From Halobellus litoreus (GTDB taxonomy: Archaea; Halobacteriota; Halobacteria; Halobacteriales; Haloferacaceae): a DNA stretch of 64,000 nt. Position 1 is the first letter of the stretch. Each line of letters begins with the position of its first letter. Where the stretch lies: the NCBI RefSeq assembly GCF_024464595.1, contig NZ_JANHAW010000002.1, positions 1,178,001-1,242,000 of the forward strand, in the 5' to 3' direction. The position numbers and the translations under genes were made by a program. The notes below the pieces were generated by a model. It made no database searches. It had not been told where the DNA came from and saw only the letters and a list, made by a program, of their open reading frames with translations. Of this stretch, positions 42,335-49,595 are shown in pieces.

Positions 42335-42443
42335 CGGGAGCCGAGCCCCGAGAACCGGGAGCGCCGATCCGAGCGGCAGCCTCCCCGCCGCACCCGAATC
42401 GGCGGGTCCAGGCTTTTGTACTCGGAGTGTGTTACGTTGGCAT

Positions 42444-43106
42444 ATGACGTTCATCATCGTCGGGTACGGTCGGGTCGGTGCACGGACGGCCCGGATTCTC
42501 CACGAGGAGGGGTACCCGGTCGTGGTCGTCGACAACAACCCCGACAAGGCCGACCGCGCCCGCGAGGCCGGGTTCGAGGTCGTCGAGGGAGACGGGAGCA
42601 ACGAGTCGGTACTGAAGCGCGCGGGCGTCGAGAACGCCGTCGCGCTCGGCGGCCTCACCGGCGATCCGAACGTGAACTTCGCCGCCTGTATGATCGGCAA
42701 AGATCACGGTTGTCGGGTGGCGATGCGGATCAGCGAGGACTACAGAGAGGAGATCTACGACCGCTACGAAGAGGACGTCGACGAGGTGATTTACCCCGAG
42801 CGCCTCGGCGCGGCGGGGGCGAAGACGGCCTTGCTCGGCGGGAGTTTCAACGCGATCGGCGAACTGACCGAACAGCTACGACTGACGACGGTGACGGTCC
42901 CCGAGGGCGCGCCGGTGGTGGGCCGGAAAGTCAACGACATCGACCTCGGCGACTTCGGCCGCATCTACGCCCACGGTCGAAAGCGCGAGGCGATGACGAT
43001 TCCCCTGCCGGGCACCGTCGTCGAGGCCGGCGACCAGCTCGCGCTCGTGGTCGACGACGAGGACGACGGACTCGAACGGACGCGGGCGACGCTCCTCGGC
43101 GAATAG
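42444..43106 (+). CDS. TrkA/RCK-type NAD-binding regulatory protein
   Basis: 220 residues from ATG 42444. GYGRVGARTARILHEEGYPV (GxGxxG) and VVDNNPDKAD (acidic Asp after beta-2, NAD preference) form the Rossmann domain. The TrkA-C domain spans about 140-215. Members gate K+ channels or transporters by nucleotide binding. There is no membrane partner next door, unlike the TrkA-type gene at 27054. Confidence 0.88.
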   Translation: MTFIIVGYGRVGARTARILHEEGYPVVVVDNNPDKADRAREAGFEVVEGDGSNESVLKRAGVENAVALGGLTGDPNVNFAACMIGKDHGCRVAMRISEDYREEIYDRYEEDVDEVIYPERLGAAGAKTALLGGSFNAIGELTEQLRLTTVTVPEGAPVVGRKVNDIDLGDFGRIYAHGRKREAMTIPLPGTVVEAGDQLALVVDDEDDGLERTRATLLGE

Positions 43107-43196
43107 TCGCGAGAACTCTCTCTAACGGGGAGATTATCGGATGCGTCGTCGCGGGGGACGACGACGCCAACGAACCGGGGTGCAACGTCCGCGTGT

Positions 43197-43350
43197 CGGG
43201 CGCGCGGTGGGAGGATGGGAACTGAGGCCGTTGTAAGGCCCGCTGTCGTCCCTTACCGGCGACCGCGCCACGGGGGAGCGTCCGCCGGTAAACAGGCACA
43301 ACGGAACCTATCAGCGGGACGGACTGACCGTCCCTGGGAATGCGCGCCCG
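43197..43350 (-). ncRNA. Candidate structured non-coding RNA (about 154 nt)
   Basis: The ends close with CGGGCGCGC (43197-43205)/GCGCGCCCG (43342-43350). Inside, an arm pairs 43222-43234 with 43298-43314 (4+2+7 bp, small bulges) and continues to a perfect 9-bp hairpin TTACCGGCG (43253-43261)/CGCCGGTAA (43283-43291). Beside it is a perfect 7-bp hairpin GGGACGG (43316-43322)/CCGTCCC (43328-43334). All helices nest without clash. A minus-strand TATA-like TTTTAAGT (43373-43380) is 26 nt before 43350. On that strand a loop contains UCCUCC, similar to anti-Shine-Dalgarno. It does not look like RNase P, SRP or tRNA. The strand is inferred from the promoter only. Confidence 0.5.
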
Positions 43351-43372
43351 CTCGTTTGCTCTTCCGTACCAC

Positions 43373-43380
43373 ACTTAAAA
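43373..43380 (-). promoter_or_regulatory. Predicted minus-strand promoter of the structured RNA
   Basis: TTTTAAGT on the minus strand is centred about 26 nt upstream of position 43350, where the closing stem of the RNA candidate begins. This is the normal archaeal TATA-to-start spacing. Confidence 0.4.
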
Positions 43381-43472
43381 CTGCGTCAGACGACCGGCAG
43401 ACTGCGGCACCGTCGAGCCGTAACGCCGCGGCTCTACCGGGTCCCGGAGACCGCGATTCCAGCCTGGGGGGA

Positions 43473-43895
43473 TCAACTCCGCCAGGCGCCCTGCAGGTAC
43501 GCGCCGACGAACATCCCGGCGAGCGCCCACAGGATCGTGACGTTGCCGACGCCCAGGCTGGCGTAGGCCGCACCCGGACAGATGCCCGACAGCCCCCAGC
43601 CGACCCCGAATATCGCACCGCCGATCAGCACGTTCCTGTCGAACGGCTTCAGCCGCCGTTCGTACCGGTTCCCGGTCAGCGGCGCGCTGTCCCGGATCCG
43701 AGGGAGGACCGCGAAGGCGATTCCCGAAACGATCGCCGCACCGAACATCACGAACGGGAGTCCGAGGTCTTCGAACAGGAGGAAGTCGATCACGACCTCC
43801 GGCCGCGCCATATGGCTGAATCCGAGTCCGAAGCCGAATATCACGCCGCCGACGAGGATCAGCGGGATGAACAGCGGATGTCGTCCGTCGCTCAT
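43473..43895 (-). CDS. YeeE/YedE-family membrane protein, C-terminal half-type (DUF6691-like)
   Basis: 140 residues with four membrane helices. GVGWGLSGICPGAAYASLG is the conserved Cys-containing re-entrant motif of the YeeE/YedE (TsuA-like) thiosulfate/sulfur transporters. It overlaps the preceding half-transporter gene by 4 bp, so the two halves are made together and probably form one pseudo-dimeric channel for thiosulfate or a related sulfur anion. Confidence 0.88.
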   Translation of the reverse strand: MSDGRHPLFIPLILVGGVIFGFGLGFSHMARPEVVIDFLLFEDLGLPFVMFGAAIVSGIAFAVLPRIRDSAPLTGNRYERRLKPFDRNVLIGGAIFGVGWGLSGICPGAAYASLGVGNVTILWALAGMFVGAYLQGAWRS

Positions 43896-47316: not shown

Positions 47317-47982
47317 ATGCAGACGTGGAGGGCGCTCTTCGAGCGGGCGAGCGAGTACGACGTCGACGAGGACGCGATCCGAGAGACCCTCGACGCAGTC
47401 AGGACGGCCGTCGAGAGCGACGGCGACGAAGCGGGTTCGGCGGGTCGTTCGGAGGACGAGGCGGGTTGTTCGGAAGGAGAGGCGGGAGACACCGATGACG
47501 CCACGTCACCGCCGGCGGAGTCCAGCCCCGCGCGGGTCGTCGCCGACGCCGACGTGCTCGCGGCGGATCTGCTCGTCGACGGCGACGCGCGGCGCGCGCT
47601 CGATCACCTCCGCGGGCACTCCTGGACGACGCTGCTCGCGAGCGAGGCCCTCGTCGACGACGCCGAGGCCGTCGTCGTCGACCTGACGGACGCAGCGCTC
47701 GCGGGCGCGTGGCGCGAGCGCGTCTCGGCGTGGTGCGAGTTCGTCGCGCATCCGCCCGGCGACAACCCGGCGCTGGCGACCGCCTACCGCGGCGGCGCGA
47801 TGCATCTCCTCTCGTACGACGACCGACTGCTCTCGGCGAAGGCCGGCGCGGAACTGGGCAGCCGACTCTCGGTGAGCGCTCGGCACCCGGGCGCGTTCGC
47901 GACGCTCTTCGACGCCGAGAGCCTGTACCGGGAGGTCGAGGGCGGCGAGTATCCGGGGCCGGATCGGGATCCGCGCGAGTAG
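47317..47982 (+). CDS. Conserved haloarchaeal hypothetical, PIN-like core
   Basis: 221 residues. Residues 33-70 are an acidic disordered linker. The second half starts VVADADVLAADLLVDGDARRALDHLRGH, which looks like the first strand and helix of a PIN-type fold (Asp at strand end), with further acidic residues (SYDDRLLSAKAG) near the end. I therefore suspect a PIN-like or degenerate nuclease domain (remembered as DUF7384), but activity is unproven. Unlinked in function to its neighbours as far as I can see. Confidence 0.6.
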   Translation: MQTWRALFERASEYDVDEDAIRETLDAVRTAVESDGDEAGSAGRSEDEAGCSEGEAGDTDDATSPPAESSPARVVADADVLAADLLVDGDARRALDHLRGHSWTTLLASEALVDDAEAVVVDLTDAALAGAWRERVSAWCEFVAHPPGDNPALATAYRGGAMHLLSYDDRLLSAKAGAELGSRLSVSARHPGAFATLFDAESLYREVEGGEYPGPDRDPRE

Positions 47983-49343: not shown

Positions 49344-49595
49344 TGGTTTCACCACGGGCGCTTGCGATTCGGGCGGCGTTCGACGCCGACCCACATTTCG
49401 TCCCGATCCCTCGGGTGCCCGCTGGCGTCCCGTTCGACCAGCGAGTTGCCCCTTCTTCCCTCGTGGCGTTCTTAACGACTTCGAATGTCGACTGCGACGA
49501 CTCCCGGGAGAGTCGTCGGTGGAGCGCATCGGCGGGGAACTCCGAGTCGACGCGGGAACGAACGGCTTTTGACGGCGGGTATCGGAAGGCTACGT

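Follow-up and report, generated by a model that had tools for sequence, protein, structure and literature searches.

A candidate small RNA gene with its own promoter, a GC clamp and a C-rich loop conserved among haloarchaea

Results and discussion

Locus and gene neighbourhood

The window analysed here, a stretch of 64,000 nucleotides of Halobellus litoreus DNA, contains an intergenic interval between a TrkA-type gene and a gene with a sulphur-transport domain, and the features located in and around this interval are listed in Table 1. An earlier note on this DNA had proposed an independent small RNA gene at the site, lying next to a sulphur operon and the TrkA-type gene. Of the two neighbours the TrkA-type gene proved to be conserved, though not obligatory, while the sulphur genes are incidental. 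A link to the sulphur operon was rejected as the neighbour on that side varies between genera, Haloferax having an ABC-transporter ATPase gene there.

Table 1 Features of the locus (window positions; sequences of minus-strand features as RNA or DNA of that strand)
Feature	Position	Strand	Remarks
TrkA-type gene, convergent	42429-43106	+	Pfam TrkA_N and TrkA_C
Intergenic interval	43107-43472		between TrkA-type gene (+) and sulphur-transport-domain gene (-)
Small RNA gene including promoter	43137-43402	-
P3	43143-43167	-	10-bp hairpin, CCCCC loop; probable 3' end region; kept in genus relatives
3' tail	43168-43197	-	GACACGCGGACGUUGCACCCCGGUUCG...; kept within the genus (comparison with relatives)
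P1, 3' arm	43198-43205	-	GCGCGCCC
Closing stem	43198-43205 x 43342-43349, plus 43197C-43350G		9 bp; plus-strand sequences GGGCGCGC x GCGCGCCC
Conserved segment	43206-43230	-	CGGCCUCAGUUCCCAUCCUCCCACC; contains CCCAUCCUCCC at 43209-43219
P2-arm extension	43231-43315	-	lineage-specific (this genome and G011); C-rich loop at its end
7-bp hairpin	43316-43334	-	GGGACGG/CCGUCCC; shared with the near relatives G009 and G011 only
P1, 5' arm	43342-43349	-	GGGCGCGC; predicted RNA 5' end (start site 43349)
TATA box	43373-43380	-	TTTTAAGT; centre about 27 nt before 43349
Upstream promoter element	43385-43402	-	GTCn3CGn2CGTCTGACG; two GTC half-sites 11 bp apart
Gene with sulphur-transport domain	43473-43895	-	domain match

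The TrkA-type gene was convergent and downstream in 98 of 110 loci, with the RNA start at a median distance of about 170 nt, and in genus g13 the RNA was missing together with any close TrkA relative. Both observations would fit an action in cis in which transcription running towards the TrkA-type gene tunes this K+-transport regulator, whether through polymerase collision, antisense pairing or an overlap of 3' ends, but we consider this unlikely. The RNA was present where no TrkA relative was found at E<=1e-40 (G018 and the four g46 genomes G314, G383, G223 and G279), and five further genomes carried the RNA with the TrkA-type gene located elsewhere, while no RNA was detected beside the TrkA-type gene in G008, G010, G012, G193 and G198. 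Since each was found without the other, the tie is mostly one of synteny, and a cis role on the TrkA-type gene is possible without being required.

The neighbourhoods share more than the TrkA-type gene, as genes for similar proteins (VVADADVLAADLL... type) stand at a distance of a few kb from the RNA in this genome (window 47317-47982) as well as in Haloferax (L061 2126-2602, L072 186-716). In G008, for which the RNA was not detected, three TrkA-type copies are clustered (C1:2526808-2530684; L164, L178).

Fold and closing stem

The minus-strand fold was better than all of 200 dinucleotide shuffles (z -3.73); the plus-strand fold was unremarkable (z -1.57, 15/200 dinucleotide shuffles). The 9-bp closing stem at 43197/43350 described in the earlier note is present in the sequence, and the 7-bp hairpin, a 9-bp hairpin and a bulged arm named there were all recovered in the minus-strand fold. 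The helices of the proposed structure are there, but the closing stem alone is universal. A recent insertion, present in this genome and G011 and absent from other relatives, comprises the 9-bp hairpin and bulged arm. That it folds is shown by six pairs that differ on both sides between this genome and G011 with pairing retained.

The core of the closing stem, an 8-bp GC clamp (P1), was paired in 99.2% of alignment cells, with double changes in five of its eight pairs, and none of 500 shuffles did as well. As the alignment had been fitted to the stem, an arm-swap test was added, in which the arms of 22 variant copies formed 169 of 176 pairs with their own partners and a mean of 160.2 (maximum 164) after swapping. 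Variant arm pairs included GGACGCGC/GCGCGUCC, AGGCGCGC/GCGCGCCU, UGGCGCGC/GCGCGCCA and GGGCGCAC/GUGUGCCC. The compensatory changes that the earlier note had proposed to look for in this stem are thus found in P1 and, together with the arm swap and the compensatory pairs of the arm, indicate that the structure is under selection.

P1 was also kept in sequence, GGCGCG/CGCGCC being nearly invariant. Conservation beyond pairing would be unneeded for mRNA pairing alone, which makes a protein-binding role the main rival to the antisense function considered below. Under such a role a C-rich-binding protein, Lsm or a ribosomal protein would sit on the GC clamp and the CCCAUCC loop, and the RNA would act as a decoy or as the core of a small RNP. 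GC stems are favoured anyway in high-GC genomes, however, and large insertions are tolerated beside the C-rich segment; we regard this reading as rather improbable, though less so than an action in cis.

Conserved C-rich segment

The conserved parts of the loop were CGGCCUC and CCCAUCCUCCC, the columns of the latter being 84-98% conserved. Of 100 copies 93 carried CCCAUCC, whose unpaired probability averaged 0.89, so that a C-rich, aSD-like motif is both conserved and predicted to be unpaired. The importance given earlier to a single-stranded UCCUCC on the minus strand gains support, as the segment that contains it (43209-43219) is predicted to be unpaired and few parts of the RNA are as well conserved. 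C-rich loops were also found elsewhere in the RNA, at the end of the arm and as the CCCCC loop of P3. The CCUCCC half was changed or lost in the family f7 copies and in L011, L015 and L166, which speaks against its use as an antisense seed.

The length from stem to stem ranged from 32 to 152 nt (median 47) with all three phases represented, and no closed ORF of at least 12 codons was present among 100 copies, and a small ORF was rejected on these grounds. From the predicted ends the RNA would measure about 213 nt in this genome, whereas the shortest copies of relatives are about 50 nt long. In the compact copies L135, L137 and L138 P1 leads directly, or after no more than a few bases, into a U-run, which in L135 and L138 is followed by the TrkA stop codon. 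The U-runs right after P1 suggest that the essential RNA is only about 50 nt.

Promoter geometry

A minus-strand TATA-like box at archaeal spacing had been noted previously and was located at this position (Table 1). Among the copies the TTTA of the TATA box was kept in 97-100%, and P1 began 42 nt from GTCTGAC in 102 of 110 loci and 41 or 43 nt from it in the other eight. The RNA gene would thus have its own promoter with the TATA box about 26-28 nt before the predicted 5' end, in a geometry fixed in 110/110 loci.

In 98 thinned copies GTC at -11 to -9, C at -5 and GTCTGAC were invariant; GTCTGAC was also the criterion for extracting copies, so its 100% conservation is partly a matter of selection. 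The first BLAST set was independent of any selection by GTCTGAC or promoter. Information content in the thinned copies was high at the GTC, the C, GTCTGACG and TTTA, fell near background from about +19 to +41 and rose sharply at the first base of P1. From this profile, which is that expected of a TATA promoter followed by a neutral spacer, we infer that transcription starts at 43349.

The element CGTCTGACnnnnTTTWA occurred once in the whole genome and the upstream site therefore seems dedicated to the small RNA gene. A further 11 bp upstream, roughly one turn of the helix from GTCTGAC, lies the second GTC half-site (window 43395-43402). The paired half-sites suggest that a dimeric regulator could act on the promoter.

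P1, a GC-rich inverted repeat, lies where two genes converge, and the conservation might instead mark a DNA or mRNA element such as a terminator, a replication site or a binding site, or a small ORF. This we hold to be very improbable, as the pattern is strand-specific, with the TATA box and the upstream element on one side only, a fixed distance, a neutral spacer and an unpaired conserved loop, and closed ORFs of 12 codons or more are lacking among the copies.

Distribution across haloarchaea

A BLAST search with the intergenic DNA was positive for 24 of 60 related genomes. The matches form two blocks (query about 31-125 and 208-300) that nearly abut in relatives such as G009, most of the DNA between them being inserted in this genome and G011. 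A covariance model of the kind proposed in the earlier note was then run against genomes of the order; this model (R1) consisted of the promoter and the 8-bp stem, so that its matches include the promoter. It detected the gene in 256 of 392 genomes and 67 of 95 genera of the order, almost always as one copy, and in 265/391 when the search was restricted to near-complete genomes. One copy was present in each of the 15 Haloferax genomes, and a pattern scan of named genomes was positive for twelve Haloferax species. All 65 matches in a phylum-wide sample fell within the haloarchaeal order. G034 and G048, which were negative by DNA search, carry diverged copies beside the TrkA-type gene, and the detected fraction is thus a lower bound.

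The comparative evidence strongly supports the original proposal of an independent minus-strand small RNA gene with an archaeal promoter. At the level of sequence these comparisons establish the gene, its promoter geometry, its clamp and a C-rich segment predicted to be open, and we consider it almost certain that an order-wide small RNA gene absent from Rfam 15 exists. Viral spread was considered and rejected, as the pattern matches on viral contigs lack the 3' arm and the TrkA relative is also absent there.

Comparison with known RNAs

No Rfam 15 family matched the locus at its gathering score and the matches at permissive thresholds were weak and unrelated; a tRNA/tmRNA search found none at the locus. 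The Rfam scan suggested earlier thus agrees with the placement of this RNA outside known families. Rfam does hold other structured RNAs of haloarchaea (RNase P, SRP, sot0042 and H/ACA guides), none of which reached the gathering score here. Elsewhere in the window Rfam matched a tRNA gene (RF00005, 8541-8612, minus strand) and an eL15-Euryarchaeota ribosomal protein leader (49361-49415, minus strand), the latter with 34.8 bits, just above the cut-off. Literature searches, run with the sequences CCCATCCTCCC and CCCAUCCUCCC as well as with keywords, returned no description of the RNA, and undescribed here means absent from Rfam 15 and not found in these searches.

Small RNAs of H. volcanii (s194, sRNA132, htsf242/IG1.7, H225.2R, hts10 and htsf359) are likewise intergenic with promoters of their own (PMC3956466, PMC6104027, PMC6560208), and s194 and IG1.7 have C-runs too. 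Four of these, htsf242/IG1.7, H225.2R, hts10 and htsf359, have been reported in 7-19 other haloarchaea (PMC3956466), and any of them could be the RNA of this locus. Unlike this order-wide RNA, s194 and sRNA132 are reportedly confined to Haloferax. In H. massiliensis no CetZ gene was found within about 125 kb of the RNA. Identity with s194 seems unlikely on this indirect ground, CetZ3 being HVO_2013, close to HVO_2011s2 (the s194 locus). Lists from dRNA-seq may also contain the transcript without naming it.

Possible function

Transcription from the dedicated promoter, formed by the upstream element and the TATA box, would start on the minus strand at about 43349, and P1 would close the RNA and hold the C-rich CCCAUCCUCCC open in the loop; in this genus the tail and then the CCCCC-loop hairpin would follow the clamp. 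The exposed segment could serve in trans as an antisense seed for GGGAGG-type, Shine-Dalgarno-like or other G-rich mRNA sites, and pairing of the seed would lower translation of the mRNA or alter its stability. We put the chance of an independent small RNA gene combined with a C-rich seed acting in trans at about even, and the antisense mechanism taken by itself somewhat below that.

A similar arrangement is known from the alpha-r14 small RNAs of alpha-proteobacteria, in which an ultraconserved CCUCCUCCC lies in unpaired regions among changing stems, with a conserved stretch upstream (PMC10746234). The RNA described here resembles alpha-r14/NfeR1 in its CCUCC-type, C-rich unpaired motif, its free stems, its conserved upstream promoter stretch and its stand-alone gene (PMC10746234). 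It differs in having CCCAUCCUCCC as its motif, in one main copy within a terminal GC clamp, and in its unrelated sequence, its archaeal promoter and the mostly leaderless mRNAs of its hosts; homology is not claimed.

In this genome no place other than the RNA locus itself matched the 14-nt complement TGGGAGGATGGGAA exactly, and most sites with two mismatches lay inside likely coding frames, so that the complement search gave no convincing target for the UCCUCC-containing segment. The want of good sites in this search would favour the binding of a protein, for which no partner is known. Haloarchaeal mRNAs are mostly leaderless (PMC4983044) and H. volcanii reportedly lacks Shine-Dalgarno initiation (PMC6104027), which would limit Shine-Dalgarno targets of an antisense seed to a minority of genes.

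A small, single-copy and order-wide RNA might alternatively guide the modification of rRNA or tRNA as a C/D or H/ACA RNA, or pair with rRNA. On the rRNA contig the conserved segment formed a best duplex of -28.8 kcal/mol, no better than those of shuffled motifs, which averaged -28.3 kcal/mol and equalled it in 14 of 30 cases, and Rfam gave no C/D or H/ACA family match. We rejected rRNA pairing of the segment, and a guide or rRNA-pairing role has very little likelihood.

The presence of this single-copy gene in about two thirds of the sampled haloarchaeal genomes, together with its unique promoter element, points to a role that they share. It is tentatively proposed, with less confidence than the antisense mechanism, that this is a core and nearly universal regulatory RNA of haloarchaea, under its own transcription-factor site, whose single invariant C-rich seed would act on many genes. 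If so, it would be a class-wide archaeal counterpart of the global small RNAs of bacteria in a group where small RNAs were reported to be poorly conserved; in a survey of H. volcanii 22 of 27 small RNAs were confined to one species (PMC3956466). The copies with their covariation form a ready Rfam family, and one gene with one seed and one promoter site offers a defined target for deletion or mutation in model haloarchaea. Two copies from the same genus, L011 and L015 (genomes G005 and G004), keep the promoter, P1 and the tail and have lost CCCAUCCUCCC, and are natural seed-loss variants.
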